Shown: positions 3,875-43,409, counted from the first letter of the stretch. The stretch: 61,841 bases of DNA from a virus (IMGVR_UViG_3300050821_003130:1-61841), one strand, 5' to 3'. The notes: generated by a model from the letters alone, not told the origin. A program made the numbers and translations.

Positions 3875-4104
3875 TCCGGCCATCCCATGAGCTTGTGCTT
3901 GAAGAAATTCCCGATACGAGCGGCTACCTCGCAATTCGCCTTGTCAATGCCGTAGGTCGTACAGTGCTCACCGCCTTTTATCGCCTGTTTGGCTGTCTCG
4001 CCAACTCCCGCTGGCCGGTCGACCTTGCGCGCAATGATCACGACTTGGTCGTAACCATATTTGTCAGCCACCAACTTGGCTGCGCTGATCGGGATTGGCT
4101 TCAT
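3871..4104 (-). CDS. Hypothetical protein, 77 residues
   Basis: A short alpha/beta-looking protein with a YGYDQVVIIARK strand-like segment followed by a Gly/Lys-rich region. Its start and stop both lie in ATGA overlaps with the adjacent genes, so it is part of the coupled operon. I do not recognise the family; the segment recalls small conserved phage proteins of alphaproteobacteria. Confidence 0.7.
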   Translation of the reverse strand: MKPIPISAAKLVADKYGYDQVVIIARKVDRPAGVGETAKQAIKGGEHCTTYGIDKANCEVAARIGNFFKHKLMGWPE

Positions 4105-5123
4105 AGTATCCTCCCGTCAAGTCGGATGTCGTTCAGCCTGTTTTCCCACTCGATGAGGCTGAGGTAGTATTTGAGCGTATAGCACGTCGGATCATCCTTC
4201 AGCGTGCCGTCGCGCAGCATCTTGGACATGCGAGTGATTTCATCGGAAGTGGTCACCGATTTTAGCAGACAACCGTCGTCAATTGTCTCGGATATTTTCC
4301 GATATGAGCACGAATAGCTCCGCTTGTCTGGATCATCCGGTATCGGCATGACCCTCGCCATCGGGAACTCATGAGCGACCTTCTTCGCCACGTCCGCGAT
4401 CGTGTGGTTGCTCGTCCCGACGTTGAACGTCTCCCCGGCCACGCTGTCGGACTCCACGGCCCACACGAACGCTCGCACCACATCATCAACGTGAATGAAG
4501 GGGCGCCACTGCTCCCCACCGCCCATCACGTAGATCACGCCGTCGCGCCAAGCCCGCAAAGTCATGATATTTATTGCGAGGTCGAACCGCATCCGCGGCG
4601 CCACCCCGAACACCGTGGCGTTGCGGAGGATGACCGGCTCGAACCCATCCTCCGCGATGGACCGCAGATGGTCCTCCACCTCAACCTTGCTGCGGGCGTA
4701 CAGCGTGAGGGGCTTGCAGGCGTCGGCCTCGGTGAGGTTCGGCCGGTCACCGGCTCCGTACACGCTGGCCGAACTCGAGTAGACATATCGGCGGCACCCA
4801 GCAGCCTTAGCCAACGTCGCCAGCCGCTTGCCGCCCTCGATGTTGATGCTGCGGGTCAGCTCGGGGTCGATTTCTGCGGAAAGGTCGTTCGATAGGCCAC
4901 AGAGGTCGACCACGGCGTCGAAAACCGGACCCGATTCGAAGCGGAGAAAGTCCAGATGAACACTGCGGATGTCACCTCGGATAGTCGACAGATTTGGCCC
5001 ATCCTTGGGGTATTTGCCGAAAAAGAAACGGTCGAAGCCGGTGACGTGATGGCCCCGCGCGGCAAGAGCCTCCGCCAATGGAATACCTAAATACCCGCCA
5101 CAGCCGGCTAAAAGTATTCTCAT
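4101..5123 (-). CDS. NAD-dependent sugar epimerase/dehydratase (SDR)
   Basis: Extended short-chain dehydrogenase/reductase of 340 residues, the family that epimerises or dehydrates nucleotide-activated sugars. The NAD-binding motif GCGGYLG is at the N-terminus, followed by SSSASVYG and the catalytic YARSK (Y-x3-K), and a late substrate-domain segment RPFIHVDDVVRA. The start at 5123 makes an ATGA overlap with the exonuclease gene; an upstream extension to 5351 would run over that gene and lacks family character. It sits with a DegT aminotransferase, a second epimerase, an ATP-grasp enzyme and glycosyltransferase-like genes, so a nucleotide-sugar pathway is the likely context. The substrate cannot be told from sequence. 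Confidence 0.9.
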   Translation of the reverse strand: MRILLAGCGGYLGIPLAEALAARGHHVTGFDRFFFGKYPKDGPNLSTIRGDIRSVHLDFLRFESGPVFDAVVDLCGLSNDLSAEIDPELTRSINIEGGKRLATLAKAAGCRRYVYSSSASVYGAGDRPNLTEADACKPLTLYARSKVEVEDHLRSIAEDGFEPVILRNATVFGVAPRMRFDLAINIMTLRAWRDGVIYVMGGGEQWRPFIHVDDVVRAFVWAVESDSVAGETFNVGTSNHTIADVAKKVAHEFPMARVMPIPDDPDKRSYSCSYRKISETIDDGCLLKSVTTSDEITRMSKMLRDGTLKDDPTCYTLKYYLSLIEWENRLNDIRLDGRIL

Positions 5124-5599
5124 GTCTGCACCGAAAGACCGTGCAAAAACTCCCACGCCACCTTGGTCCACTGCGCATCCATCAGGGCGTTGTGCTCTTT
5201 CGTTGTCTGCTCTGGAAGCATCGGGTTTCCAAGGGCATCGCACCACTGCTTTACGTCCCGGCAGTATTTTGGCCATCCATTCGGTAGCTCCATCATGGTC
5301 CCGAATAGCTGGCAGAGTGCCACCCAATCGTAATCGGCGTAATAGGCCCAAACCTCAGGCTTCTCGCCCATAAATTCAATCAAAGCGCTCACAATAGCCC
5401 ATCGCTCGTAAATATGCCTACTGTCTATCGTAAGGTGCGGAGCGACGTTGGTTGCAAGCCACTGCGTTGACCGCGCCAACCTCCGGGACTCTGGAGTTTC
5501 CGCGTAATATGTCCGTCCGTCCTCGGAGACAACACCGATTGAGATCAACTGAATGGTGCTGCCATCCTCGTAGAACTCGGTATCGAACCAAAATCTCAT
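5120..5599 (-). CDS. DEDD-type 3'-5' exonuclease-like protein
   Basis: 159 residues with DnaQ-fold features: FDTEFYEDG at the N-terminus (D-x-E, motif I), WAYYADYDW in the middle (motif II Asp) and EHNALMDA near the end (the His and Asp of motif III in the DEDDh subclass). It resembles the compact exoribonuclease family typified by Rv2179c. Both ends are in ATGA overlaps with sugar-pathway genes. A nuclease inside a sugar operon is odd; it may act on RNA during takeover and share only the promoter. Activity is inferred from motifs. Confidence 0.8.
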   Translation of the reverse strand: MRFWFDTEFYEDGSTIQLISIGVVSEDGRTYYAETPESRRLARSTQWLATNVAPHLTIDSRHIYERWAIVSALIEFMGEKPEVWAYYADYDWVALCQLFGTMMELPNGWPKYCRDVKQWCDALGNPMLPEQTTKEHNALMDAQWTKVAWEFLHGLSVQT

Positions 5600-6687
5600 C
5601 GTGCGCTCCCTTGGATCTCGCGGATGGCCGTCGCGACCCGTTCGCACTCGGCCGGCGTATGGTCGTTGTAAATCCCGATCGCGATCACCTGACTGGCCAC
5701 GCGCAAGGTCACCGGAAGTTTGACCTTCTGGTTCGGCCAGTAGATCGGATCGAGATGCATTGCCGGATAGTAGACGCGCGTCTCAATCCCGCGCAGTTTC
5801 AGCATCTCCACGAGACGGTCGCGCGTCATTCCGAATGCGGTCTTGTCGATAAGGAGCGGGAAGTAGCACCAGCTCGGCGCTTGGTTCGGTGGAGGATCAA
5901 CCCATCTGACACCTGATATGCCACGCAGTTGATCGCTGAGACACATGGCGGCGCGCGATCGATTGGCTATGTGCGTCGGGAACGCGCGGAGGCTTTCCAT
6001 GCCGATGAGCGCGGCAACCTCGGTCATCTTGCCGTTGAATCCGAGTTCGCCCGACAGTCCGAAATTCCTGATCTTGCGCGCCGTGGCGATGAACGACTTC
6101 TCGGGCGAGCACAGGCACCCGCCTTCCATAACGCTAAATGGTTTTGTCGCATGGAAACTGTATATTTTGGGCCGGTCAGGTCGCGGCGGGAACGCCCCGA
6201 ACGCCGGCGCGCTGTCGAACATCAGGTCAACGCGGTTACGGTTTGCGACGTTGGACAGCATCGGGTCGCAGACCAGCCCATACACGTCCACGCCGAGAAT
6301 CGCCTTGGTCCGTCGCGTGAGCTTGCGTTCCGCGTCGAACGGATCAAGCGTCAGCGTTTCCTCGTTTATGTCCGAGAAGATCGGGTGCCCGCCGGCCAGC
6401 TTGACCGCGTGCGGAGTGGCGCAGAAGGTCAGACTCGGCACGATTACATCCCAACCGTTCACACCTTCCGCCATCAGCATCGCAACCAGCGCCGCCATGC
6501 CGGAGGAAAAGCAAATCGTGGGCACGCCGAGATATTCGGTCAGCACCGCCTCAAATTCCTCGACGTATTTACCGCCATTCGTAACTTGACCCGTGGCCAA
6601 ACATTCCGCGAACCTATCCGCTATCGTTTCCAGAGGCGGGAACGTCGGCCGCACGATCGGGAGGATGGGCAGGGTTTTGTCGAGCAT
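5596..6687 (-). CDS. DegT/DnrJ/EryC1-family PLP-dependent aminotransferase
   Basis: 363 residues of the sugar aminotransferase family, which moves an amino group onto a keto-sugar nucleotide. The PLP lysine is in SFHATKPF (about Lys182), with the aspartate in MFDSAPAFG upstream and the family's EGG after the lysine. The TNGGKYVEEFE segment near the N-terminus is also typical. The start at 6687 gives the expected family N-terminus; the upstream gene overlaps it by 74 bases, more than other junctions here. With the flanking epimerases it suggests synthesis of an amino- or acylamino-sugar. Confidence 0.9.
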   Translation of the reverse strand: MLDKTLPILPIVRPTFPPLETIADRFAECLATGQVTNGGKYVEEFEAVLTEYLGVPTICFSSGMAALVAMLMAEGVNGWDVIVPSLTFCATPHAVKLAGGHPIFSDINEETLTLDPFDAERKLTRRTKAILGVDVYGLVCDPMLSNVANRNRVDLMFDSAPAFGAFPPRPDRPKIYSFHATKPFSVMEGGCLCSPEKSFIATARKIRNFGLSGELGFNGKMTEVAALIGMESLRAFPTHIANRSRAAMCLSDQLRGISGVRWVDPPPNQAPSWCYFPLLIDKTAFGMTRDRLVEMLKLRGIETRVYYPAMHLDPIYWPNQKVKLPVTLRVASQVIAIGIYNDHTPAECERVATAIREIQGSAR

Positions 6688-7546
6688 CTGTGTCTCCGTT
6701 CTGGCGCAGCCATGCGACGTACTCCGGCAGGCCGTCCTTGATGGAACGCGGGCGGAAATTGAACTCGGCACGGGCCTTGTTGATGTTGAGAGCGGGGAAG
6801 CCGCAGTATCGCGGATGATCGCCGTGCTTGATGATCACCTGAGCCGTGCCTAGGTCGGCCTGGAGCAGCAGGTCCATGACCTGGCCGATTGTGGTTCGCG
6901 ACCCAGAGCCGATGTTCACCGGCCCGGTGACGTGTGATTCGCAGGCCGCGAGGGTCGCCTGAACCACGTCATGGACGCTGACATAATCCGCCCCGTAGGC
7001 CCCGCCGTTCTCGAGCACGATCATGTCACCCCGCAACATCCGGCGCACGAGGCTCGGCAGGAGGCCCTTGGATAGGCCTGGGCCATAGACGGACGACAGG
7101 CGCAGGGTGCAGCTCTCCAGCCCCCTCCAGCCCGCCACAACGGTCTCCTGGGCCACCTTGCTGGCAAGGTAGGGTGTGCCGCGGCTGGTCGGGTAGAGCG
7201 GGGCCGATTCGTCGGGGAAATCCTGCCGCATGGCGTAGGCGTTGCCACTGCCGAAATTTACGAATCGGCGCACCCCGGCAAGCTCGGCGGCCCGCAGCAC
7301 CTTGGTCGTGAATAGGACGTTGCCCTCGAAGCACTCCCGGAACGTCTCCGGGTGCATGTCGGCCATCAGGATGGGGATGTACGCGGCGAGGTGGCAGACG
7401 ACTTTGCAATCTTTGAATAATCGAAAGAAGTCAGGACTGTCTGCATACACGCGCCGGATCGGTATGACATGGTGTCCAGCCGCCAGCGCCGCGACGTGGA
7501 CATGGCTGCCGATGAATCCATTTGAGCCGGTGAGAGCAATTCTCAT
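6614..7546 (-). CDS. NAD-dependent sugar epimerase (second SDR)
   Basis: 310-residue extended SDR: TGSNGFIGSH NAD motif at the N-terminus and the catalytic YLASK tetrad segment in the middle. It is only distantly similar to the other epimerase of this operon, so the two probably catalyse different steps or act on different sugars. The start at 7546 is in an ATGA overlap with a tiny membrane protein gene; a longer frame to 7726 would cover that gene. The C-terminal 25 residues overlap the aminotransferase start and look unstructured. Confidence 0.9.
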   Translation of the reverse strand: MRIALTGSNGFIGSHVHVAALAAGHHVIPIRRVYADSPDFFRLFKDCKVVCHLAAYIPILMADMHPETFRECFEGNVLFTTKVLRAAELAGVRRFVNFGSGNAYAMRQDFPDESAPLYPTSRGTPYLASKVAQETVVAGWRGLESCTLRLSSVYGPGLSKGLLPSLVRRMLRGDMIVLENGGAYGADYVSVHDVVQATLAACESHVTGPVNIGSGSRTTIGQVMDLLLQADLGTAQVIIKHGDHPRYCGFPALNINKARAEFNFRPRSIKDGLPEYVAWLRQNGDTDARQNPAHPPDRAADVPASGNDSG

Positions 7547-7668
7547 AGCTTTTTCCGTTTGACCCAGACACAAAAGAGGACTGCGATAGGCCCGGCGACG
7601 ACCGCCCACACCAGCAGAAAATCGATCACCAAACGTACCTCGTTCTCGATCGCGATCGGCGGGATCAT
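7543..7668 (-). CDS. Single-span membrane microprotein, 41 residues
   Basis: Short gene fitted exactly between two ATGA overlaps, which supports it despite its size. The protein has an acidic/polar N-terminus, one hydrophobic segment of about 22 residues (IDFLLVWAVVAGPIAVLF) and a basic C-terminal tail (VKRKKL), so it should be inner-membrane with the lysines in the cytoplasm. Function unknown; it could anchor or regulate the sugar-pathway enzymes encoded around it. Confidence 0.75.
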   Translation of the reverse strand: MIPPIAIENEVRLVIDFLLVWAVVAGPIAVLFCVWVKRKKL

Positions 7669-7844
7669 GGTCGAACCATGACGAACAACATTTGACCAGA
7701 CGCAATCGCATTGCGGTATTGGTCAATTGTTAACCCGAAATGCCACGCCTCGTATCGGCGGATATACTCGTCGCTCGGCATCCCGGCCTGGAACTCGGAG
7801 AGTGAGCAAGTGTATTTGAAAGGAGGTTCCCGATCTTCTTTCAT
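7665..7844 (-). CDS. Hypothetical protein, 59 residues
   Basis: Small soluble protein with aromatic and acidic residues (DEYIRRYEAWHFG). The start at 7844 gives an ATGA overlap with the ATP-grasp gene and its stop overlaps the start of the membrane microprotein. Not recognised. Confidence 0.65.
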   Translation of the reverse strand: MKEDREPPFKYTCSLSEFQAGMPSDEYIRRYEAWHFGLTIDQYRNAIASGQMLFVMVRP

Positions 7845-11656: not shown

Positions 11657-13074
11657 TCCGCCGCCCTCCACATGAACGGGAACATCCGTTGCCGCAGTTC
11701 ATCGACCATTGCGTCGAATACCTGTTTCCACGCGCAGTCCTTGCCCTGCATGAAAACGCGGTGGTTGGGATTCCAGAGAACGGGGCGGGTGCCATCGCCC
11801 AGACGGTAGTCTCGGCCTCGGTACGAGTACGCGACCCACGTCTCTTTTCCCATCATGCCGGCGATGTGGCCCAGGGCGCTCTCGCACGTGATGACCAGAT
11901 CAAGTTCGCGGATGATGGCGACGGTATCGGACACGTCTCGTATTTGCGGGGCGAGGTCCCAGATCAGCGCCGCGCAGCCCGAGTCGTGGAGGTCTTTGGC
12001 GCGTGGACCGACCTGTAGGCTGTAGAGTTGCACACCCGGAACGCGATACAGCTCGAGCAGCTGCGTAACCCCAAAGGACCGATGGCCGTCAATATCGTTC
12101 GCTGGCGACCCTGCCCATGCCACGCCAATGTGTAGACGGCAGCCTGGTGCTTTCCATTTCGTCCCGATATGAAACGGAGGAACCTCGATATTAGGCGCAT
12201 CCTTGATCTCCTGATTGGTCAGCCCGAGCGCGGTCGGCAACCCCACGAACGTTGACCAGCAGTCGGCGGCCGGGAACCCGTTCGGCGGCGTCGGCACGAT
12301 GTTGATGTTGGTCAACTTCTGGAACGACGCGCGGAACAGGCGGGCGAGTTCCGGCTGAACCGCCATGTGGATGAACTTGCACCGCGCCGCAGCGGATGGC
12401 ACAAACCTAGAGAATGACAGAGTATCCCCGATACCCTGATCTGCCACCAGGAACAGCGTCTTTCCATCCTCACCTGTCCATTTCGGATACGGATAGTTCA
12501 GGAAATTCTTGAGCCGGTATTCAAACCGTCGCTCGAAATGTCTCAGACCATCCGCATACCGCCCAGCCATCATGAGCGCGAACGCCAGCTGCACCTCGAT
12601 CGCTGCCAGTTCCGGACCAAGCTTGAACGCCGTGAGTGCGGACGCGATGGCGCCAACCTCGTCGCCCTCGATGGACTGGATCATGGAGAGCGTGCAGAGT
12701 GATTGCGGGGACAAAGGATCGATCGACAGAGCTTCCTCGATCGCGGCCCGCGCCTCGTCGAAGTACCCCATCCGGTACAACTCGCGCCCCATGTTGCAGA
12801 GGCCCTTGGCCTTGTATTCGAGGTCAAGGTCGCCCTGCTCTGGTCCGATCGGAAGTTCCAACATGCGGCGATAGTTGGCAACGGCCGCAGCGACCAGGCC
12901 CATGTCCCCGTTGGCAACCCCGGTGTTGTAGTGTGCGATTGCAAAGCTCGGATCAACTATGCACGCCGACGAGAACAGCGAGTACGCTTGCTCCAAATGC
13001 TGCGGCAATTCCTTGTCGTCACGGGCGGCGACACCGTGGTTGAACATTTCCAGAGCGGCGCGACGGTCAGCCAT
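11653..13074 (-). CDS. TPR-repeat glycosyltransferase-like protein
   Basis: 473 residues. The N-terminal 190 residues hold about four tetratricopeptide repeats (for example AIEEALSIDPLSPQSL). The rest resembles the GT-B C-terminal domain found in large TPR-glycosyltransferases of proteobacteria and in heptosyl/O-GlcNAc-type enzymes: FLVADQGIGDTLSFSRF, GVAWAGSP and the late DLVITCESALGHIAG segment. It may transfer a sugar to protein or polysaccharide. It lies at the upstream end of the sugar operon and is probably the second transferase of the pathway. Its start overlaps the end of the preceding gene by 8 bases. Confidence 0.8.
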   Translation of the reverse strand: MADRRAALEMFNHGVAARDDKELPQHLEQAYSLFSSACIVDPSFAIAHYNTGVANGDMGLVAAAVANYRRMLELPIGPEQGDLDLEYKAKGLCNMGRELYRMGYFDEARAAIEEALSIDPLSPQSLCTLSMIQSIEGDEVGAIASALTAFKLGPELAAIEVQLAFALMMAGRYADGLRHFERRFEYRLKNFLNYPYPKWTGEDGKTLFLVADQGIGDTLSFSRFVPSAAARCKFIHMAVQPELARLFRASFQKLTNINIVPTPPNGFPAADCWSTFVGLPTALGLTNQEIKDAPNIEVPPFHIGTKWKAPGCRLHIGVAWAGSPANDIDGHRSFGVTQLLELYRVPGVQLYSLQVGPRAKDLHDSGCAALIWDLAPQIRDVSDTVAIIRELDLVITCESALGHIAGMMGKETWVAYSYRGRDYRLGDGTRPVLWNPNHRVFMQGKDCAWKQVFDAMVDELRQRMFPFMWRAAE

Positions 13075-13330
13075 TTTTCAAATCCGAATCATTAACAAAT
13101 TCAACAACCCCAAGCCACTGAGCGATGCGGCCCAGCTTACCTCCGCCACGCTGATCGAAATCTCCGCGACAGCATACCTTGCCTCCAGCTATCGTTGACT
13201 TGTGGCAGATGAAATAGTTGTCTCGGCCGTCAAGTTCTCGCAACAACTCTTTGCGACGATCGTTGCTTACGATCTTGTCGGAGCCGTAGAGGCACTGGTT
13301 GCAGCGCTCGGACATCACTTTGAAGGTCAT
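13067..13330 (-). CDS. Cysteine-rich phage protein
   Basis: 87 residues with CNQCLY near the N-terminus, then FICHK and CCRGDFD. This spacing of cysteines is seen in small conserved phage proteins presumed to bind zinc. The ATG at 13330 overlaps the recombinase stop (TAATG). Function unknown. Confidence 0.65.
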   Translation of the reverse strand: MTFKVMSERCNQCLYGSDKIVSNDRRKELLRELDGRDNYFICHKSTIAGGKVCCRGDFDQRGGGKLGRIAQWLGVVEFVNDSDLKNG

Positions 13331-14040
13331 TATTCGGCCGCCTGATGTTGCGGCACGCGACGAACGATGCGAAGTATCTGCGCCGGCCCGAGTTGCGTCC
13401 CCTTGCGCGACCGGAATCCGCGCTCGCTCAACGCCGTCATGATGCTGAAGTAGGACTTTCCGTCGTCCTTCATCCGCTTCATGAGTTGCACGGCTTGTTG
13501 CTCGTCATCGTCGGGGACAAGGACGGCCTCGCGACCGTGGCCGACGATGCGGTAGCCGAACGGTGCCGAGCCGCCAGCGTGTCCGCCCTTTTCCTTCTTG
13601 CCGCGGCGGCCGTCCGACATGCGCTCGGCAATGCGCCAACGCTCGAATTCCGCCATCGCAGCCAGCACGGAAAAGAACATCTTGCCCACACCATTTTCCG
13701 CGATCGGGTCGGGCGAAATGTCCGTCAAAATCACGCCTATCTTCCGCTCATGTAGCTCGCGCACGGTGCGCAGCGCGTCCTCGCTCGAACGGAACATGCG
13801 GTCGAGTTTTGCCGACACGATGATGTCGCCGGGAGCGGCGTCCTTGAGCATCTGCGCGCCGGCCGGACGCTTGTTCAGCGGCACCGATCCGGACACGCCG
13901 GGGTCGCGGTAGAACGTCATGTCGTTGACGGCGCCGCGCATCATGGCGGCACCTTTACATCGCTGCTCCTGATCCGCCATGCTGGTGCGATCCTGGGCAG
14001 CCTGCTCTACGGTCGAAACGCGGGCATAGGCGAGGATCAT
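13330..14040 (-). CDS. Small serine recombinase (resolvase/invertase type)
   Basis: 236 residues. The N-terminal catalytic domain begins ILAYARVST (nucleophile Ser9 in the new numbering), contains KLDRMFRSS with the catalytic arginines and ends in a long E-helix. The C-terminal part (FGYRIVGHG, then an HTH-like GRSYFSI-type stretch) is a shortened Recombinase-domain DNA-binding region. This is much smaller than large serine integrases, so resolution of multimers or DNA inversion is more likely than integration, though integration cannot be excluded. The start at 14040 overlaps the repeat-protein stop. Confidence 0.88.
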   Translation of the reverse strand: MILAYARVSTVEQAAQDRTSMADQEQRCKGAAMMRGAVNDMTFYRDPGVSGSVPLNKRPAGAQMLKDAAPGDIIVSAKLDRMFRSSEDALRTVRELHERKIGVILTDISPDPIAENGVGKMFFSVLAAMAEFERWRIAERMSDGRRGKKEKGGHAGGSAPFGYRIVGHGREAVLVPDDDEQQAVQLMKRMKDDGKSYFSIMTALSERGFRSRKGTQLGPAQILRIVRRVPQHQAAE

Positions 14041-16317: not shown

Positions 16318-16345
16318 AGACTATGTGATGATTTGGTAATGTCAA
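16318..16345 (-). promoter_or_regulatory. Candidate sigma70-type promoter
   Basis: Minus-strand TTGACA (16340-16345), 16-base spacer, then TAGTCT (16318-16323), which matches the -10 consensus only in part. It would give a transcript starting just before the 16289 gene. The perfect -35 overlaps the 3' end of the Tat-signal gene. Confidence 0.5.
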
Positions 16346-16641
16346 GGCTCGATCGGCACGACCAATTGCTTGAGCATCCACGGAGACGGCCGGTAAATGC
16401 TGGCGCGCAACCCCGGCAGGAAGGCTTCTCGGGTGATCTTCGTCAATTCACCATAGAGATTTTGGCTGATGGCTTGGCGAGTAGCCTCGTATGCCGCGTC
16501 CATGCGGTCACGCAGCAAATCCTCGATCGAAATTGCCTTCACCGGCATGATCGAGGTCGCGCGCACGATCGCTGGCGCGGCGATGAATAGCGCACCAAGT
16601 CCGGCGATGAAGCCGCGTCGGGATCGGATAATCTCAGTCAC
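16342..16641 (-). CDS. Tat-signal-bearing phage protein
   Basis: 99 residues. The N-terminus RSRRGFIAGLGALFIAAPAI is a twin-arginine export signal with a hydrophobic core and an Ala-rich end. The short remainder is helical. Very similar Tat-signal proteins occur in phages of rhizobia and relatives (from memory). The exported part has no known function. Confidence 0.7.
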   Translation of the reverse strand: MTEIIRSRRGFIAGLGALFIAAPAIVRATSIMPVKAISIEDLLRDRMDAAYEATRQAISQNLYGELTKITREAFLPGLRASIYRPSPWMLKQLVVPIEP

Positions 16642-34603: not shown

Positions 34604-35314
34604 TCAGTAATACACGCCAACCCCAGCTCGGCACACGCGCCCGAGGTTGGCGGATTGCCCGGCCGGCAGACCAGCCGTGAACCCGGTGTTGGCGAACGTG
34701 CAATCGCCAAACACATCCACCACGCTTCCGTTCGCGGTCTGCGATTGGATGCCAAGGCCGATGCCAGGCTGAATCTCCCACACATGCCCGCTCGGTAGCA
34801 GGAATGACGCGCTCACGTCGGCCTCGCGAATCACTCCGGCGACATACATCTTCGGATTGGTTGTCCCTGCGGCCGGCTGCGGCAGGCCCGGGAACAGCGC
34901 ACCGAAGTTAGGAAGGAACGCCCAGATGTCGGAGAAATTGGCTCCGACCTTGAACTTCTGGGTCATCTCCCACTTGCTGGCGAGGCTGGTGCTGATGCCG
35001 AGCGCGGGCGTGTTCGAGCTCCCGCCGAGATTCTGATAGTCGAACATGCCCTCGAAGCCGTACCAATGGCCGGCGCAGTCGCCCCATCCATAGCCGAGCG
35101 TGAAGCCAATCGCCGCGCCGTCAGCGATGACGCTGGTGCCGGCAACGTCGCCGTTGGCGACCTGGGCATAGCTGTTGAGGCCAGCATAGAATCCGGTGCC
35201 GAGCGGGCAGGCGAGTTTTTTGAGAGCCAGAGGCGCCTTGACCGGCATGTCAGCGGCACCGGCCGCGCTCGAGAACGCCGTCACCGCAGCGGCCACGATC
35301 AGTGCAATCTTCAT
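34604..35314 (-). CDS. Outer-membrane beta-barrel protein of alphaproteobacterial type
   Basis: 236 residues with a Sec signal peptide (MKIALIVAAAVTAFSSAAGA) followed by ADMPVKAPL, the start typical of rhizobial outer-membrane/porin-like proteins. Alternating strands (FYAGLNSYAQV, IGFTLGYGWGD, GIGLGIQSQ) and a C-terminal aromatic residue fit a beta-barrel inserted by BAM. GGGGAG precedes the ATG at 35314. An outer-membrane protein in a phage lysis region is unusual and suggests surface alteration, for instance blocking of superinfection. Confidence 0.82.
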   Translation of the reverse strand: MKIALIVAAAVTAFSSAAGAADMPVKAPLALKKLACPLGTGFYAGLNSYAQVANGDVAGTSVIADGAAIGFTLGYGWGDCAGHWYGFEGMFDYQNLGGSSNTPALGISTSLASKWEMTQKFKVGANFSDIWAFLPNFGALFPGLPQPAAGTTNPKMYVAGVIREADVSASFLLPSGHVWEIQPGIGLGIQSQTANGSVVDVFGDCTFANTGFTAGLPAGQSANLGRVCRAGVGVYY

Positions 35315-35436: not shown

Positions 35437-35835
35437 CTAGCCGGCCTTTGCCACCGGCGTCACCGTCGCCGGTATCTCGGCCGGGGTTGCGACCACCTTG
35501 TCGCTCGGAGAGGCCGCTGCCACCGCAGGGGTGGTGACAATGCCCTTGACCTCCGGCATGGCGGCCACGGTCTCGATCTGCTCCTGAGCGCTCGCGCTGT
35601 GGGCTGCCTTATAGGCGGCGTAGATCGGCGCCAGCACACCAGCAATCACGCCGATGCCCTGGACGACGCTAGTCAGGCCGCTCGCGATTTGGTTGAGGCC
35701 AGCCATGAGGCTGGTCGAATCGCTTTGCGAGATCAGCCCCATAAACGCAGCGGCGGTGACGGCTCCGGCCGCATAACTCAGCGCGTGGCGACCGGCGGCC
35801 TTGTATTGGTTCCAGTTCAGGTCAGGCAACTGCAT
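35437..35835 (-). CDS. Putative holin
   Basis: 132 residues with two hydrophobic segments in the first 70 residues (YAAGAVTAAAFMGLI and IGVIAGVLAPIYAAY), then a hydrophilic Pro/Ala/Val-rich tail. The start overlaps the endolysin stop by 14 bases. The layout and the position next to the endolysin suggest a holin, but no specific family was confirmed. Confidence 0.6.
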   Translation of the reverse strand: MQLPDLNWNQYKAAGRHALSYAAGAVTAAAFMGLISQSDSTSLMAGLNQIASGLTSVVQGIGVIAGVLAPIYAAYKAAHSASAQEQIETVAAMPEVKGIVTTPAVAAASPSDKVVATPAEIPATVTPVAKAG

Positions 35836-36937
35836 TGGAGCCCCCTTGCGGCGCGAATTCCCAATCCACGGTCACGGTGCGGGTGCCTTCCGGCCCGACA
35901 ACCCCCAGCGCGTCAAATACCGCAGGCGTGGCGTCAATGCCAGCCTTATTCCCATGATCCGATTCGGCTTGGGGCCGCTTGTGCTCCACCCAATAGGGGT
36001 CGTTGACGTGGTGGGGACCGACATCGACGAGCTGGCAGTCAACGGACTTACCGGCGTGGGAGACGCGAATCAGGGGCCGGTCGCCATGGAACCGGGACGG
36101 CAGCGCCACCCCGGGCAGCTTGGGATTGACCGGCTGGCTGGTGTAGGCGTCGTCCTGCTCGTCGCCCTCGCCCCCAAATTCGGTCATGACGACGTTCCGG
36201 TTGACCCACGGCAGGGCTACGGGCGGCGCTGGCTGCGCAGGCGTGGCGGCAGGAGGCTCAGATGGCCCGGCGACGACAGGCTCGTCCTGGGGCTCCTCTG
36301 CCGCGCCAAACGGCACGAAATCCCCGATATCAGGATGGGCGGGGTTCACCTCGTCGGGGTCCGTATCCAGCCCGGCAATGACCTGGGGGAGGTGCTGGCG
36401 GATATTGTGCCGGCCGGACGCCACAAAAACGTGCGATTCGGTCCAGCCCATGGAGCAGGAAACCCAGGTGAGGTCGACCAGACCTGCCTCGAGCACGGAG
36501 CGACAGGACAGACCGGACCCGTACACCCCCGCCCGGAGCTTGGGGAAGTTGTTGGCCTCGGTAAGCGCCTTCCGGACCCCCTCGAAATACGGGATCACAT
36601 CTCGCTTTATCTGGAACTGATTCGCGTCGAAATCGACCGCGAAATAGACCGCCGACCCGTCCGGCTGGCCCCGCTCCGCCGCTTGCTCGCGGGAATACTT
36701 GGCGTCCTGGTATCCGGTGGCGTCAGAGAACTGCCCCGGCTGATCACCCGCCCCCTCGTAGACGATGCCGAGCCGCAGCCCGGCCGCCGCGATGGCCCTG
36801 GCCTCCGCCGGCTTGATCTGCTTCTCGCCATGTGGGTTGAGGCGGTTGTCGTACCGAATCACCGTCTCGATCCCAAGCGACTTCAACTCGGCGAGCTTGT
36901 GGGTGCAGTCTTGGTTGGTGTCGATGACGGATGTCAT
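35822..36937 (-). CDS. Endolysin: DUF1906 glycosidase domain plus DPBB-like domain
   Basis: 371 residues. The N-terminal 200 residues match DUF1906, a GH25-like TIM barrel (VIDTNQDCTHKLAEL, then VIRYDNRL, AVYFAVDFD and AGVYGSG). The C-terminal part (about 235-371) has IRVSHAGKSVDCQLVDVGP and GIDATPAVFDALG, as in double-psi beta-barrel RlpA-like proteins. The combination fits a two-domain peptidoglycan hydrolase that opens the cell wall at lysis. No signal peptide is visible, so holin release is expected. Confidence 0.8.
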   Translation of the reverse strand: MTSVIDTNQDCTHKLAELKSLGIETVIRYDNRLNPHGEKQIKPAEARAIAAAGLRLGIVYEGAGDQPGQFSDATGYQDAKYSREQAAERGQPDGSAVYFAVDFDANQFQIKRDVIPYFEGVRKALTEANNFPKLRAGVYGSGLSCRSVLEAGLVDLTWVSCSMGWTESHVFVASGRHNIRQHLPQVIAGLDTDPDEVNPAHPDIGDFVPFGAAEEPQDEPVVAGPSEPPAATPAQPAPPVALPWVNRNVVMTEFGGEGDEQDDAYTSQPVNPKLPGVALPSRFHGDRPLIRVSHAGKSVDCQLVDVGPHHVNDPYWVEHKRPQAESDHGNKAGIDATPAVFDALGVVGPEGTRTVTVDWEFAPQGGSNAVA

Positions 36938-36956: not shown

Positions 36957-38837
36957 TCAATTGAGCTCTATTACTCCGCCGACGACATAGGACGATCCTG
37001 TCACTCCAGGATACGTGCCGTCATACTGGAAGCAATTCATCTGGGTGTTTCCAGGTGCCGAATTGACGCACGACAAGCCCTTGCCAGTATTTGTTATCTC
37101 TCGTCCTGAAAGCGCGTAAGTATTGGACGCAGCCACCGCATTCGGGATTGAGAATTGCAGATTTCCGGCACACGTTCCATTTGTTGTTATGTTGATTTGT
37201 ACCTGGACATCTTGTGTTTTTCCTATGGTCTTGGTGCGGCCAGTGGCGGTCGCGGTAGTTAGAGTTCCCGTACCGCAGCTCAACGTTGGTGTGTATGTCG
37301 TCCAAGACGAATTGACGTTCTGCGGCAGAACGTTCTTTTGCGCGGGAGACGTAGACAGCATCGATCCGCCAGACCAGGAGACTGCCGCGAATACACCAAG
37401 CTCCGGCGACCACGAAATGCCACCCCAATTTAAGTTGTTGGTTGTGTGTGTGGTCCAATTGATCCCATCCGGAGAGGTCATGACATTTGTGGTGCCTGGC
37501 GTCGGGGCACCAGTTGCGGCAAAAATACCAAGCTGGGGGGACCACGCGACCCGCGTCCATGTATTGGTGGTCGGCGTGGTGCGCAGCGTCCAATTTATTC
37601 CGTCCGGCGAGGTCATAACGCTGTCGGTCGTTCCCGAATATGACACAGCGACAAACAGGCGAAGCTGCGGCGACCAGACAACGCTATCCCAATTGCGATC
37701 CGTCGCCACAGACCGCGCCGTCCAATTGATCCCGTCCGGCGAAGTCATCACCCGATTGCCGGTTCCCGAGTTTGCCACCGTGACAAATAGCGTCAGCTCG
37801 GGCGCCCATGCCACGCCTGACCAGTTATTGTCGGCGGCGCTAGTCCGTGCTGTCCACGTCACACCATCAGGGCTCGTCATCACCCGATTTCCGGTGCCGC
37901 TATAGCCGACGGCAACCAGCAAATTCAGGTCGGGAGACCAGACGAGTCCATCCCAATTGTTGGTGTTAGGGGTCGTGCGTCCAGTCCATGTAATACCGTC
38001 AGGAGAAGTCATTGCCGATGAGGTGCTGCCACCACCAACGGCAACAAATAATTTCAACGCTGGCGCCCAAACCACGCCGTGCCAAGTCGCAGCGCTTGGT
38101 GCTGTTCTGACCGTCCATGTGATGCCATCAGGGGACGACTTGACCATTCCAGACGTGCCGGCCGTGGCCACGAAAAGCCCAAGTTCTGGAGACCATGCGG
38201 CGTCGGTGTAGGTGTTGCTATCGGGGCCGTTGTATGGGGTCCACGTCGCAACGGCAGCCGATGCAACAAATGACGAATAGAACGGGTTTGGCGGTACTCC
38301 TCGCGCAAGAGAGCTTGGCGTATTAGCTAATATAACATCTCCATTAGAGAGCGGTGCGGTAGGAAACAATATCCCAGAATCTTTTAAAAGCGTTCCTGAT
38401 GTATTGTTGAATATTGGGATATCACCGACCGTAGATGTCACTGGACCAGCGATTAACCCAGAGGTGGCGGCGGTGACAAACGCCGTGTTGGCAAGGTTTG
38501 TCGTATTGTCTCCCGGACTGCGGGTGGGTCCTGTTGCTCCACCGTTGAAATTCTGCAGTCCAGTCCACGCATTCGTGTTTACGGCGGATAACCCGCAATC
38601 GATGATGGTCCCGCTGGCGCCGACGCAGGCAAAATCGTTGACGGTTGTGCTGCCGGTGAAGATGGGGCCGCCTGGCTGGCCGCCGTCAATAATGACGCCC
38701 GTGGTTGCCCAAGTTGCGATGTGACCTGGCGTCACGTTTCCGCTCTGGATCACCGGAGGATTTTGGGCGCCGAGCGGAGATGCGCAAATCAGCAGCCCGA
38801 GAAGAACCGCGCATTGCGCCATTCGATGTCCGATCAT
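36957..38837 (-). CDS. Exported receptor-binding candidate with seven-repeat beta-propeller
   Basis: 626 residues. A Sec signal (CAVLLGLLICASPLGAQ) precedes a fibre-type N-terminal motif (VIQSGNVTPGHIATW, then IIDGGQ). Residues about 207-500 form seven repeats of about 44 residues, each with xWSPEL-LFVAV and TSPDGxxWT, with tryptophans at about 215, 257, 300, 344, 388, 432 and 476: the plan of a seven-bladed propeller. The C-terminal domain (SWTTYTPTLSCGTG onward) resembles the end domain of tail fibres. The start at 38837 is in an ATGA overlap with the next gene. It could be a virion receptor-binding protein or a secreted decoy or adhesin; the signal peptide leaves this open. Confidence 0.82.
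   Translation of the reverse strand: MIGHRMAQCAVLLGLLICASPLGAQNPPVIQSGNVTPGHIATWATTGVIIDGGQPGGPIFTGSTTVNDFACVGASGTIIDCGLSAVNTNAWTGLQNFNGGATGPTRSPGDNTTNLANTAFVTAATSGLIAGPVTSTVGDIPIFNNTSGTLLKDSGILFPTAPLSNGDVILANTPSSLARGVPPNPFYSSFVASAAVATWTPYNGPDSNTYTDAAWSPELGLFVATAGTSGMVKSSPDGITWTVRTAPSAATWHGVVWAPALKLFVAVGGGSTSSAMTSPDGITWTGRTTPNTNNWDGLVWSPDLNLLVAVGYSGTGNRVMTSPDGVTWTARTSAADNNWSGVAWAPELTLFVTVANSGTGNRVMTSPDGINWTARSVATDRNWDSVVWSPQLRLFVAVSYSGTTDSVMTSPDGINWTLRTTPTTNTWTRVAWSPQLGIFAATGAPTPGTTNVMTSPDGINWTTHTTNNLNWGGISWSPELGVFAAVSWSGGSMLSTSPAQKNVLPQNVNSSWTTYTPTLSCGTGTLTTATATGRTKTIGKTQDVQVQINITTNGTCAGNLQFSIPNAVAASNTYALSGREITNTGKGLSCVNSAPGNTQMNCFQYDGTYPGVTGSSYVVGGVIELN
37338..38219 (-). repeat. Seven-fold ~132-base repeat coding propeller blades
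   Basis: Seven units of about 44 codons, strongly diverged at DNA level but aligned by the TSPDG and WSP motifs. Confidence 0.85.
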
Positions 38838-39322
38838 GTGAGGTCCTGTCCGCAAAGATACACGTCCGCCGTTGCCGCCGCACCCTGCCCCGTCGTCAAG
38901 CTGAGCCATATCATCAACAGCCCGGCGATGCTACCGAGATTGGCGGACGAGAACCGCGTATTGGCCCCGAATGACGCCAGCGTGGCGGACATCAGCGATG
39001 CCGGGGTGGTCAGCGAGGAATACGCTTGCGCCGCAGCAACGATCGGAGTTCCGCCCTTCGCCGCCGCAGGATAAAACCCACCCGCTGCCGTCGTCAGACT
39101 GACCGTCGCGTTTGTGATTATGATGCTCGTGAGCTGGAACGCCACGAACCTCTGCGGTATGGCAATCGGCTGGTCGTTCGTGGTGTTGAAATTCGCCCCA
39201 CGCAGGCTCGCAATGACGCGCTGCCCGGCCGGGAATGGCCCGCCGTCCTGAACGGCCCCGTCGGATGCCCACGTTACGGCGTGCCCCGGGGTGACCTGAC
39301 CGCTTTGCAAGATGCTTGGCAT
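38834..39322 (-). CDS. Short fibre-associated protein
   Basis: 162 residues. Begins ILQSGQVTPGHAVTWASDG, the same module as the propeller protein but without a signal peptide, then a beta-rich hydrophobic region. AGGA precedes the ATG. Likely a virion attachment or adaptor protein for fibres. Confidence 0.7.
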   Translation of the reverse strand: MPSILQSGQVTPGHAVTWASDGAVQDGGPFPAGQRVIASLRGANFNTTNDQPIAIPQRFVAFQLTSIIITNATVSLTTAAGGFYPAAAKGGTPIVAAAQAYSSLTTPASLMSATLASFGANTRFSSANLGSIAGLLMIWLSLTTGQGAAATADVYLCGQDLT

Positions 39323-39370
39323 TTCATCCTACTTTGTTGAGCCCTACCGGGCTATTATCGTTCGATGCCG

Positions 39371-39544
39371 CTATCCGGGCGCGTTCTTATTTTGAGATTG
39401 ATCGATCTTGATGCACACCACCCGCGTCGGATGATTGGCCATCCCAATATGATACCCCGGTGGACATTGCGGCGGGTCGCCTGTCGCGGGGATAACGTTC
39501 GGCTGCGCTTGTGCAAGCATCAGAATAGCGAGGATGATCTTCAT
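39371..39544 (-). CDS. Small exported cysteine protein, 57 residues
   Basis: MKIILAILMLAQAQP is a short signal peptide; the mature part has two cysteines (CPPGYH and VCIK) that could pair. The start forms an ATGA overlap with the metalloprotease-like gene. Not recognised. Confidence 0.6.
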   Translation of the reverse strand: MKIILAILMLAQAQPNVIPATGDPPQCPPGYHIGMANHPTRVVCIKIDQSQNKNAPG

Positions 39545-40407
39545 TGGCTACTATACCCCAGAACATCGATCATGATGAAGTCGCATGGCAATAGAGGAAT
39601 AAGTTGCCCCGACGTGGCGCTACCGTCAAACGGAGATGGTGCGCCGGCGTACAGCCCACCACCAGACCAATCGCCGTAGTCAGGACTAGTCTGGAAACTT
39701 CGCTGGTTCGTCGCACCACTATTGATCGAGAAGTAGCGCGCTCCTGTCGTGGTCAGATTTCGCGTCCCATTCGAGGCGTAGCCGTAGAAGTCCTGGATCG
39801 ACATCGCCCCGGCACCGAAAGACATGCTGAGGTTGGCGAAACGCCCCATCGTCTCCATCATCTCGTGCAGAGCCGCCTCGCGGAAGTCGATCTGTCCCGC
39901 CGTCGGCGTCCCGCTGTACGACCAACTAACACCTGTGTTGAAGCCGATGAAGGCGTATCCGGTGCCAGACTCAGTAGTGAGCCCGAGTGCAATTTCTTGC
40001 GCGGTCGTCATGACGCCAAAAGAAACACCAGACGGCGCGGATGACGGCAGCGTACTGACCGCCTGCATAGCGTTCGCGCTTGTCGCGTGAGCGATGAGAG
40101 CGGTTCTGGCATCGGTGTAAGCGATGGCGGCCAGGAAATAGACGCTTGAAGCGTCACCACCAACGCCGCTGCCGTCTACCTCGCCCCAACCAACGTTAAT
40201 GTGGATCGTGCTGTTCAGATAGATCAACGACCCGAGGTACGCCGCAGCCGCGTTCATCGCAGGCTTGAAGCCGGCCGGAGCGCTGCTCGTGCTGCTGTCG
40301 TAGATTAGGACTATCTGGAACTGGCCGCTGTTGTTCCCGTGCGTCCATGCGTATGCCGGATTCAACAGCCACAAAAACAAAAAAATTACAGAAAACGCTT
40401 TTCGCAT
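39541..40407 (-). CDS. Exported metalloprotease-like protein
   Basis: 288 residues. Signal peptide (FSVIFLFLWLLNPAYA), then a domain with ALHEMMETMGR (His181, Glu182), like the HExxE-type site of a bacterial family of secreted metalloprotease-like proteins (NF038122, from memory). The third metal ligand is not evident. In a phage it could trim surface proteins or process fibres. Confidence 0.68.
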   Translation of the reverse strand: MRKAFSVIFLFLWLLNPAYAWTHGNNSGQFQIVLIYDSSTSSAPAGFKPAMNAAAAYLGSLIYLNSTIHINVGWGEVDGSGVGGDASSVYFLAAIAYTDARTALIAHATSANAMQAVSTLPSSAPSGVSFGVMTTAQEIALGLTTESGTGYAFIGFNTGVSWSYSGTPTAGQIDFREAALHEMMETMGRFANLSMSFGAGAMSIQDFYGYASNGTRNLTTTGARYFSINSGATNQRSFQTSPDYGDWSGGGLYAGAPSPFDGSATSGQLIPLLPCDFIMIDVLGYSSQ

Positions 40408-40412
40408 TGATT

Positions 40413-40742
40413 TTACTGCGCAGGCGTTACAGTGATTGGCACGACAGCATTAGCCGCATTTTGCGCTGCCGTCGTCTGCGCTGCGGCTTGCACAGCCAAC
40501 TTTAACTGGTTAAAAATATCGTTCGCATAGATGTTGAAACAGCCAGCGGCAGTCCCGCTCCCCGGCGTACTGGCGTAATGCGCCGAGCACCAGGAAACGA
40601 ACGTCGCTGCGTCAGCGTCCGAGATCGTGGCTGTAGGCGCGAACGTCGTGGTGCCGGCTGTGTTCTTGTATGTGATAGTTAAGCTCCCGGCGTTAGCCGG
40701 AAGCACAGATGCAAGTAGAAATATTAGCGCTGCTCTGATCAT
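40413..40742 (-). CDS. Small exported hypothetical protein
   Basis: 109 residues with a clear signal (IRAALIFLLASVLPANA) and a mature part ending in an Ala/Gln-rich helix. The start at 40742 is four bases after the neighbouring stop. Not recognised. Confidence 0.65.
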   Translation of the reverse strand: MIRAALIFLLASVLPANAGSLTITYKNTAGTTTFAPTATISDADAATFVSWCSAHYASTPGSGTAAGCFNIYANDIFNQLKLAVQAAAQTTAAQNAANAVVPITVTPAQ

Positions 40743-40746
40743 GGGT

Positions 40747-41784
40747 TCAGTCCGTTTTCCAACTCGTGCCATCACAGTAAACAGATGCGTGAACAGCACC
40801 GCCGCTGACATAGGCGGTCAAAAATGTAGGGGTCAAGGCGTCTGATACAGCGCCACGCGAGCCCTCCGCGCCAGCATTGCAAGTCGGCAGTGGCGTACCG
40901 GCAGCAGAGAACACTACGTTGTCTTGAATGACACCAGTATTCTTGACCGTAAATACGGTCTGAAGGGCGTTTTGCGACGTGCCTGTAGTGCCGGCGCGCG
41001 CCGCCTGAAAGATGATGTCGCCACCTGCTCCCGTACCAGTGCCGCGCGATCCATTTATAGTCGCATTTGCTCCTGTCGTATTACTCGTACCAGCCACAAC
41101 GCTTTGAAACGTTAATGTCTGCGCAGCCGGCGCCGCCGCATCAGACCGCCCGAATTGCCAAGTCGCGTTACCAGTAACAGTAAGAAAATCGTTAAAGCTA
41201 TTATTCCACTCGTCGAACTGAAATTGTCCATCACCGGATGCGGAGAGGGACCAATTATTTGTGTTAATTAGCGACCCACCGTTAAGCGTTATATTTCCAC
41301 CAACAGTCGTAAATCCCTGCGCGGCTGTCACAGCTCCGGTATTTGATACTTTAAACTCGCTGGTTGTTCCACTAGCTCCACCATATAAATTCATCAATGT
41401 CGATCCAGCGCCACGCGCCGTGTCAGTAATGTGCATTGCAAAAATGTCGGTAACCCCGGTCGTGTTGATCGTCCCCGTAAGGCTCATAAGTGAAGTCGCG
41501 CCAGAGCCTGTCAAAGAATATCCAGTAGAGGTTAACGGCGTTGTGTTGACAGTAGAATTGGTAATCGTAACCTGTCCGGTCCCGGCGTAAGTGAACCCCG
41601 CATCGCCGCCGAAGGCGGATGAATTGTTGAACTGAACGTTGGTGTTTGCTCCACCGGGAGTTCCTCCGCCACCACCACCGCCGCCAGCTCCGACTTGGAT
41701 TTGCGAGTACAGAGGCAGCGTCGAAAGCACGAACGCCGCGAGCGCGGAGAATAGGACAGAAGCTACTACGTCTTGCTTTCTCAT
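40747..41784 (-). CDS. Fibre/spike-like protein with N-terminal export or anchor segment
   Basis: 345 residues. A hydrophobic N-terminus (VVASVLFSALAAFVLSTL) precedes a Gly run, then GANTNVQFNNSSAFGGDAGF, a fibre-type repeat unit, and a C-terminal domain (LPTCNAGAEGSRGAVSDA) typical of phage fibre ends. Receptor or surface binding is likely. Confidence 0.75.
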   Translation of the reverse strand: MRKQDVVASVLFSALAAFVLSTLPLYSQIQVGAGGGGGGGGTPGGANTNVQFNNSSAFGGDAGFTYAGTGQVTITNSTVNTTPLTSTGYSLTGSGATSLMSLTGTINTTGVTDIFAMHITDTARGAGSTLMNLYGGASGTTSEFKVSNTGAVTAAQGFTTVGGNITLNGGSLINTNNWSLSASGDGQFQFDEWNNSFNDFLTVTGNATWQFGRSDAAAPAAQTLTFQSVVAGTSNTTGANATINGSRGTGTGAGGDIIFQAARAGTTGTSQNALQTVFTVKNTGVIQDNVVFSAAGTPLPTCNAGAEGSRGAVSDALTPTFLTAYVSGGAVHASVYCDGTSWKTD

Positions 41785-41785
41785 A

Positions 41786-42901
41786 TCACTTCACCGATCC
41801 GTGAATGAACGCCGTGGCAGAGGCTGTCTTGGTGAAGCACCCTGTTGACGACCATGATGCCGTGATCCCGGTCGTGAAGATCTCAACTGGACCAGGGTTG
41901 TAGTTGATACTCGCGGCGTAGATACCGCTCTGCGTCAAAGCGCCGGGAATGCAATCTTTCGGAGTTACGGCACCGTCTGCCGGCGCTGTCGTCGCGTCGA
42001 AGATCAGAAGATAGCCGGCTACAGTGCTCGTGGCATAGGCATTGTAGAGATTGCCGGGGCTTCCCTTAAGAATATGATTGGCTTCTGCCGCTGCGGACAG
42101 CACCGCCGTGATCCCGGCGGCGGCACCTGCTGTCGGAGCAATCTCAACTCCGTTCGTCGTTACGTCGGTCGTCTGGTCGATGCCAACCTTGCCGATGATT
42201 GCCGTGCCAGCAGGAATAGCCGCTTGCGCCGCCGTCAAGATGCCCTTTGCCACAGCATTCAATGTCGCCGTCGCCGCACCATTCGCGGCGGCGGTATCTG
42301 TCGTTGAACCTAATGCTACATCGGCGCCGTTGGAAATGGAACCGGAAGCGTAGGCACCGGAAGCGTAGGCACCGGAAGCCACGCCGCCAGAGGCTATGGT
42401 AACCGCTCCGCCAGAGCCTCCACCTCCACCACCACCCGTGCCGGTAGGAAGTCCCGACCCGCCGGTCATATTGACGGTCGTGGTGCTAGTCGATGTTATG
42501 CACGTAAGCTGGGTTGATGCCCCTACGGTGAACGCGAACCAACCACCGCCGGGAGAGAGGTACTGCGAGCTGGTGGTGGCAGATGCACCAAGAGCGCAAT
42601 AGGCGCCATTGGTCGCGCCCACATTGGTTGCCACCACCACAGTTCCGGCTGGTAGGGTGCCGGTAACTCCGCCGGTCGTAACCGCAATTGGAGTGCCGGT
42701 CGAAGTAGCGGTGAATCCCGAGATCGAGGCCGTTACCGAAGCGTTGACCTGCAGCGGGGTTGTCGAATTACACGGAAGCCACTGATTTAATCCGGACGTG
42801 GCGTTTGGATTCCAACAATTTAGATTGACGTTTTGGGCCTGCGATGGAGTTCCAATAAAGCTGAGCAGCAGCCCGATGAGCAGCAGAATTGCGCGTGTCA
42901 T
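41786..42901 (-). CDS. Exported fibre-like protein
   Basis: 371 residues: a strong signal peptide (AILLLIGLLLSFIGTPSQAQ), a beta-rich body, a Gly-rich linker and three short ASGAYASG-type repeats before a C-terminal region (PKDCIPGALTQSGIYAASI) found in phage virion proteins. The start is coupled to the small coiled-coil gene before it. Confidence 0.72.
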   Translation of the reverse strand: MTRAILLLIGLLLSFIGTPSQAQNVNLNCWNPNATSGLNQWLPCNSTTPLQVNASVTASISGFTATSTGTPIAVTTGGVTGTLPAGTVVVATNVGATNGAYCALGASATTSSQYLSPGGGWFAFTVGASTQLTCITSTSTTTVNMTGGSGLPTGTGGGGGGGSGGAVTIASGGVASGAYASGAYASGSISNGADVALGSTTDTAAANGAATATLNAVAKGILTAAQAAIPAGTAIIGKVGIDQTTDVTTNGVEIAPTAGAAAGITAVLSAAAEANHILKGSPGNLYNAYATSTVAGYLLIFDATTAPADGAVTPKDCIPGALTQSGIYAASINYNPGPVEIFTTGITASWSSTGCFTKTASATAFIHGSVK

Positions 42902-43119
42902 TTGGGCGACTCCTGCTTGGCCTGGAGGTCTTTGACTTGCTGCTGTGCAGCGGCAAGGGCGGCCTGCAATTGCTCAATCTGTACGGACTGGCTCGTCACC
43001 TGAATGATCAGGTTTCCGATCTGGGTGGCGATTCGTTGATTGATGTCGGACGGGGGTTGCTGGGCATGCGCGGGGATTGATACGACCAATCCCAGAGTAA
43101 GCAGGAAAGCGCGCATCAT
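42898..43119 (-). CDS. Small exported coiled-coil protein
   Basis: 73 residues: signal peptide (MRAFLLTLGLVVSIPAHAQ) then a helix rich in Gln/Ala/Leu with heptads. ATGA overlap at the start. It could be a spanin-like or fibre-tethering component. Confidence 0.62.
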   Translation of the reverse strand: MMRAFLLTLGLVVSIPAHAQQPPSDINQRIATQIGNLIIQVTSQSVQIEQLQAALAAAQQQVKDLQAKQESPK

Positions 43120-43409
43120 TTTCGCCTCACGATGATGTTCACCGCGATCACAAACGCCGCGTAAATCGCCAGCGTGGTGATCTGGTACGGGTTGGGATCG
43201 GCGGAAATCGCCATGCCGAGCCAAAATACGGAGGCCACGGTCAGGAGTGAGAACAACGAGGCCAGCGCGACCAGCGCCCGCTGCGACAGCGCGGTCAGGG
43301 CCAAGGTCAGGGCGTTGGTGGCGAGCTCGGTGCGGTTGTCCGGTGGAGCGGCTGTATTCTCGTCTTCCTCAACCAGCTCCAGCTTGAACGTCCCCGGTTT
43401 CTCCGCCAT
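43116..43409 (-). CDS. Two-span membrane protein
   Basis: 97 residues: a charged N-terminus and two hydrophobic segments (LVALASLFSLLTVASVFWLG and TTLAIYAAFVIAVNII). It precedes the exported-protein block and may be involved in lysis timing or export. Overlaps the upstream gene by 41 bases. Confidence 0.6.
   Translation of the reverse strand: MAEKPGTFKLELVEEDENTAAPPDNRTELATNALTLALTALSQRALVALASLFSLLTVASVFWLGMAISADPNPYQITTLAIYAAFVIAVNIIVRRK

Follow-up and report, generated by a model that had tools for sequence, protein, structure and literature searches.

Blocks of adjacent genes that code for fibre-like proteins and carry export signals recur across numerous phages that are unrelated to one another and come only from metagenomic data. 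One such block lies at positions 36957 to 43119 of the virus record IMGVR_UViG_3300050821_003130, the whole of which (61,841 bases) is called the window here, and which also encodes helicase and endolysin genes. The block consists of eight open reading frames (ORFs), all in tandem on the minus strand between 43119 and 36957, and every ORF named in an earlier reading of this DNA, the original prediction, does exist (Table 1; genes are named by their lower coordinate). We propose, with a probability of roughly 55%, that the block encodes receptor-binding fibres and tip proteins that are exported by Sec, or sometimes by twin-arginine translocation (Tat), fold with disulphides in the periplasm and are joined to the virions at lysis. 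In the textbook view tailed phages build their fibres in the cytoplasm, with which an exported block conflicts.

Sec-type signal peptides, with n-, h- and c-regions and a signal peptidase I site, were called in six of the seven block genes recognized by our gene caller, compared with two of the 66 other genes of the window (Fisher p=1.1e-6). Genes were called by a program of our own, and signal peptides not by SignalP but by a rule-based predictor that asks for a positive n-region, a hydrophobic core and a small-x-small site. The predictor gave false positives in 0.6% of shuffled N-termini and 0.1% of internal segments, and it passes over some real cases, such as the fetched loci (L numbers) L023 and L007, whose N-termini look export-like by eye. 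Signal peptide prediction had been suggested as a check on the claim that adjacent genes of the block, 40747 included, carry export-type N-termini, and the rule-based run bore the claim out, with a clear signal peptide in six genes and a borderline one in 39371. It was also confirmed that an IxSGxVTPGHxxxW module (VTPGH module) is common to two genes, 36957 and 38834 only, and that the signal peptide is present on 36957 only. The description of the block genes as fibre-like stood for 36957, 41786 and 40747, but not simply for 39541, which matched the NF038122 metalloprotease family. The two positives outside the block were 34604-35314, whose product is beta-barrel-like, and 16342-16641, which encodes a 99-amino-acid protein with a Tat-like signal (SRRGFIAGLGALFIAAPAIVRA), is distant from the block and had no Pfam match.

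An even number of cysteines is a common trait of proteins folded under oxidising conditions. Cysteines were counted by cluster, at 35% identity. Clusters with signal peptides had even, odd and zero counts in 63, 6 and 12 cases, as against 196, 282 and 261 for clusters without (binomial p 4e-13, Fisher 2.8e-16). When only proteins of fibre-like composition were considered, even and odd counts numbered 71 and 9 with a signal peptide and 54 and 70 without (Fisher p 2.9e-11), the cysteine density of the former class being twice that of the latter. Within the window the exported block proteins have 6, 2, 2, 6 and 0 cysteines, all even numbers, apart from 39541, whose number is odd. A single domain was found in both forms, and its versions with signal peptides (L020, L104) have four aligned cysteines, of which the L112 version, without a signal peptide, has none. 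A residue-wise count over alignments of homologues with and without signal peptides leans the same way, although low-complexity alignments make this count unreliable. The even-cysteine bias points to selective pressure towards oxidative folding, for which cytoplasmic fibres would have no use, in line with the original argument that fibres assembled in the cytoplasm should not need export. A cysteine pattern linked to signal peptides is no proof of disulphides, but neither a vestigial nor a misread signal would yield it. Judged from sequence, the block proteins are probably truly exported, and their export and oxidative folding are well supported.

A role in the virion is suggested by the architecture of 36957. 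Among four homologues the signal peptide is 17-53% identical, the mature N-terminal region of about 95 amino acids 62-82% and the body 16-30%; the homologues in L104 and L042 are more distant, with about 30% identity to the window over the N-terminal region. This conserved region holds a cysteine pair (C71/C81), two cysteines being invariant in the mature N-terminus of five full-length homologues, and is followed by a variable body, which in the window has propeller-like, BNR-like repeats (WSPxLxLFVAV...TSPDGxxWT) and a C-terminal domain and in sister phages other beta-rich sequence. A conserved N-terminus under swapped bodies is a hallmark of fibres; a conserved N-terminal dock with a variable body was found for 36957, and the check was otherwise made for the 41786 module only. 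In the window and in L102, L103, L104, L105 and L042, a homologue of 38834 without a signal peptide (61-80% identical) lies beside a homologue of 36957 that has one, and the two share the VTPGH module. A tblastn search with 36957 matched eight records in the propeller part only; one target is annotated as a tail fibre (KSC gp039), the rest being hypothetical proteins. In contrast, 41786, 38834 and three fibres with signal peptides from L014 and L020 had none or one weak match among cultured phages.

The position of the block agrees with such a role, as in the window and in most sister phages it occupies the tail-fibre slot between the phrog_5880 protein and the endolysin. Relatives of 41786 were taken from 80 viral contigs. 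In the fetched loci, adjacent genes with signal peptides formed 38 runs, each two to six genes long, with gaps of mostly -4 to +90 nucleotides between the genes. The core genes of the contigs with such runs differ (phrog_156 portal, T7-like portal and capsid, phrog_376 tail protein, tape measure). As these loci had been picked by a block gene, a second sampling was made by the upstream phrog_5880 gene. In the nine loci so obtained signal peptides were found in 16 of 73 downstream genes versus one of 87 upstream genes, and the majority of sister phages have the block next to this gene. In the T7-like phage of L014 the block lies between the capsid and tail-tube genes (from PHROG matches and a reading of N-terminal sequences); past the internal virion genes no gene for a fibre was recognized. 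It is from this gene order and the mostly soluble nature of the proteins with signal peptides that we propose exported fibres joining the particles at lysis. Four adjacent genes with signal peptides also follow the portal gene of the environmental podovirus ctLwi270 (MW202554; L086:4805-10305), an annotated public record that lists their products as ordinary proteins of glycoprotein-repeat, lectin and polygalacturonase-like type. Tat-like instead of Sec signals were found on three spike-like proteins of sister phages (L003 11953, L105 3355 and L110 20005), the TIGR01409 match of the first falling under the cutoff. Searches of PHROG, Pfam and NCBIfam gave no fibre-family match for any block gene.

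Several points weigh against exported virion fibres. Fibre-like genes without signal peptides stand in the place of the block in L112, and the equivalent genes of the cultured Rhizobium phage RHph_I1_23, the nearest cultured match to a window structural gene (28% identity), also have none, which implies that export is not obligatory. Among the regions that were reached by homology and examined, those of cultured phages had equivalent genes without signal peptides, and only the environmental podovirus MW202554 differed; the comparison took in three of the eight records matched by 36957. The cysteine count of the metalloprotease-like 39541 is odd. The absence of a gp17-type fibre from L014 rests on gene order, because a Pfam search for T7 gp17-type fibres gave no match in any control genome and so carries no weight. 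That the exported fibres attach to virions is something we infer for phages that are uncultured, we know of no tailed phage that adds exported fibres after lysis, and since lysis would dilute the fibres, assembly would need to be fast or take place in a confined periplasm. The main rival, which we hold to be rather unlikely, is that the products, soluble lectins of fibre-like form together with a protease, are kept in the periplasm, come out at lysis and never enter the virion. Such a released decoy might trim receptors, or mask them, on nearby cells and cell debris, whereby the progeny would be freed or competing phages blocked. Free release fits the export and cysteine evidence equally well, the several distinct lectin-like bodies per phage exceed the need of one tail, and the protease-like 39541 suits a released cocktail. 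However, the block stands in the tail-fibre slot, which in L112 is filled by fibre-like genes without signal peptides, the conserved dock of 36957 under swapped bodies is what would be expected of a virion fibre, and in the T7-like phage of L014 no other fibre-like gene was seen.

It was originally suggested that the block provides an exported decoy, adhesin or anti-superinfection coat, here taken to act on the infected cell. An envelope adhesin or coat in the living cell would account for the export signals, for the beta-barrel-like gene 34604-35314 downstream, to which genes near the block in L004 (15160), L006 (14401) and L012 (6245) are N-terminally similar, and for occasional exosortase-type C-termini elsewhere (L014). 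Nevertheless, lipobox-like sequences were present in five of 139 proteins with signal peptides, C-terminal anchors or transmembrane segments were few, and no outer-membrane translocator-like gene was found in the block. With soluble mature proteins and no such translocator the products should remain periplasmic before lysis, with the cell surface out of their reach, making a pre-lysis coat the least compatible. The envelope anchor of a superinfection-exclusion or conversion protein was not found, 34604 being a possible exception outside the block, and two scans of genome collections gave no prophage homologue, so that lysogenic conversion looks unlikely. This explanation was not supported in its original form and is regarded as improbable; the tail-fibre slot and the conserved N-terminus and swapped body of 36957 fit virion fibres matured in the periplasm better than a decoy, adhesin or coat. 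The N-terminal hydrophobic segment might instead stay uncleaved as part of a particle fibre, with no real export, since tailed phages assemble in the cytoplasm as a rule. This is very unlikely, because the signal peptide of 36957, though it diverges beside a well-conserved mature N-terminus, keeps its n-region, core and small-x-small site, and because the even-cysteine bias is restricted to proteins with signal peptides. Least probable of all is that the genes are morons, host secreted proteins acquired by chance and without a virion role. Although the family of 39541, NF038122, is bacterial, the N-terminal families of 36957 and 41786 had no match in bacterial genomes in the two genome-collection scans and several to many in viruses, and the position beside the phrog_5880 gene is held in most sister phages.

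If the proteins are exported virion fibres, a route for their assembly can be outlined. The signal peptides suggest that host Sec, or Tat for some spikes of sister phages, would export each precursor and that signal peptidase I would cut it, and the cysteine statistics support folding and disulphide formation of the mature proteins in the periplasm. Meanwhile DNA-filled particles in the cytoplasm would bear the VTPGH protein without a signal peptide (38834) and no fibres. Once endolysin and other lysis proteins break the envelope, the particles would meet the periplasmic fibres, which would dock by their conserved mature N-termini to give infectious virions. The docking surface may be the VTPGH module, possibly set against the same module of 38834, and in other cases WxHG-type N-termini; here cleavage, docking and the role of 38834 as a socket are what we infer. 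A possible advantage in soil or water is the stability that disulphides would lend to the fibres; another is that glycan precursors in the cytoplasm would not be bound too early. That assembly is split between compartments in several unrelated phage lineages, with heads and tails made in the cytoplasm, disulphide-locked fibres in the periplasm, the two joined only at lysis and 38834 as the socket, is a tentative proposal, which we consider conceivable but short of probable.

Short motifs were also seen at mature N-termini. The motif [WF]x(0,1)HG occurs directly after the predicted cleavage site or a few residues past it on unrelated bodies (39541 in the window, L004 10112, L010 5955, L013 7319, L016 8544, L032 9327 and L042 10489), and QVPMTGAGKGAPGG is found likewise in several phages. 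The mature WTHG start of 39541 is met again on large exported proteins of other phages whose bodies are unrelated, the loose motif being observed 10 times compared with 1.7 expected, an excess that is a lead only, as the motif was searched for after it had been seen. It is possible that these motifs are docking peptides.

Table 1. Block genes, their neighbours and other features of the window.
Position	Strand	Length (amino acids)	Product	Signal peptide and predicted cleavage	Cysteines	Remarks
664-3600			terminase-type gene			
34604..35314	(-)	236	host-type outer-membrane beta-barrel-like protein	N-terminus ...GA/ADMPVKAP		
35822..36937	(-)		endolysin, phrog_13480			Rv2525c-like glycoside-hydrolase-like domain PF08924; downstream border of block
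36957..38837	(-)	626	exported tail-fibre-like protein	...AQCAVLLGLLICASPLGA, cut before QN	6	VTPGH module
38834..39322	(-)	162	VTPGH protein	none		predicted jelly-roll
39371..39544	(-)	57	small ORF	short, borderline, MKIILAILMLAQA, cut before Q	2	not called by gene caller
39541..40407	(-)	288	exported NF038122-family metalloprotease-like protein	MRKAFSVIFLFLWLLNPAYA, cut before WT	1	mature WTHG
40413..40742	(-)	109	exported protein	MIRAALIFLLASVLPANA (...SVLPANA), cut before GS	2	
40747..41784	(-)	345	exported fibre-like protein	N-terminus MRKQDVVASVLFSALAAFVLSTLPLYSQ	2	Gly-rich linker; GGANTNVQFNNSSAFGGDAGF repeat-type segment
41786..42901	(-)	371	exported fibre-like protein	MTRAILLLIGLLLSFIGTPSQA (...GTPSQA), cut before QNVNLN	6	
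42898..43119	(-)	73	exported small protein	MMRAFLLTLGLVVSIPAHA (...SIPAHA), cut before QQPPSD	0	start 43119
43116..43409	(-)	97	two-transmembrane protein			just upstream of block; conserved in L002, L003, L102, L103, L111, L112
43641..45719	(-)	692	phrog_5880 protein, probable internal virion protein	none	0	upstream anchor for sister-phage search
56767-57813			capsid protein, phrog_9953			

Among the other block genes, the mature part of 42898 is coiled-coil-like, with a homologue in L006 at 7771. The 41786 protein has an N-terminal beta-sandwich module with two invariant cysteines (C102, C134), which is found in many viral contigs; its predicted model is confident at residues ~61-150 only, with the spore appendage Ena3A as best solved match (E 0.011). 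The model of 38834 (predicted local distance difference test score 65) best matched the cyanophage Pam1 capsid protein (E 0.028), and no claim is based on either model. The real start of 40413 is probably the ATG at 40742, and 36957 has two candidate starts, 38822 and ATG 38837, the latter of which overlaps the 38834 stop codon. The match of 39541 to NF038122 covers residues 47-285 with 114.7 bits against a curated cutoff of 80 (E 7.5e-33), and no relative of this metalloprotease type was found in the viral contigs scanned. The 34604-35314 protein had no match in Pfam or NCBIfam and no relative in a plasmid search; its 'ADMPVK' start presumably resembles Rhizobiales outer-membrane proteins. 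No close relative of the window phage was found in annotated phage collections.

Additional genes and sequence features were noted in the window and in other phages. Two nucleotide-sugar epimerase-like genes and one aminotransferase-like gene lie in a row at 4101-7726 of the window (phrog_540, phrog_3139), which suggests a phage-encoded sugar pathway. Within the block of L002, positions 12930-13955 encode a multi-transmembrane Wzy_C-like protein of the O-antigen ligase or O-oligosaccharyltransferase type (E 5.6e-6, below cutoff), a possible modifier of glycans of the host or of the exported fibres. Sorting ends of the PEP-CTERM/VPLPA-like exosortase type were seen on viral proteins with signal peptides, namely at L014:15074-15697 (TPLPPALPLFAAGLLALLTLRR; also in L013 and L015) and at L034:14654-15484 on the minus strand (VPEPASALMFSLGFLALAGIRR).

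Like tail fibres of tailed phages, such as those in the T7 gp17 slot, the block lies near internal virion and lysis genes and has Gly/Ser/Thr-rich beta bodies and a conserved N-terminus with swapped C-terminal bodies, but it differs in having signal peptides and paired cysteines and in lining up several genes for exported fibre-like proteins. To our knowledge no fibre assembly pathway includes export. Virion proteins with cleaved signal peptides are familiar from the coat of filamentous phages (M13 pIII/pVIII), which, however, assemble at the membrane during extrusion, whereas the window phage is tailed, with terminase, capsid and endolysin. The 39541 protein matches the NF038122 family over its full length and above the curated cutoff, yet it is phage-encoded, lies within a fibre block and is a predicted protease. 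The nearest precedent that we found is WceF of Pantoea stewartii, a bacterial exopolysaccharide enzyme that forms a tailspike-fold beta-helix trimer with a Tat export signal, and the study did not establish where WceF finally resides (PMC7949094). It offers a precedent for the export of tailspike folds, and the three spike-like proteins of sister phages also bear Tat-like signals, but WceF is not phage-encoded. No description of fibre blocks with signal peptides was found in the literature searched, a scope that left out most subscription journals and bioRxiv preprints, which agrees with the suggestion that the system is previously undescribed.

Should the exported proteins prove to be virion fibres, the assembly of tailed phages would extend beyond the cytoplasm, with a host range that hinges on the Sec and Tat pathways, signal peptidase and DsbA-type enzymes of the host. 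The cloning of receptor-binding proteins from metagenomes should then drop the signal peptide and be done under an oxidising regime. If instead the products work unattached, what phages release at lysis would be multi-protein lectin cocktails that have gone unmeasured. Either reading concerns many uncultured phages, as blocks with signal peptides are present in most sister phages and in phages of several other core-gene types.

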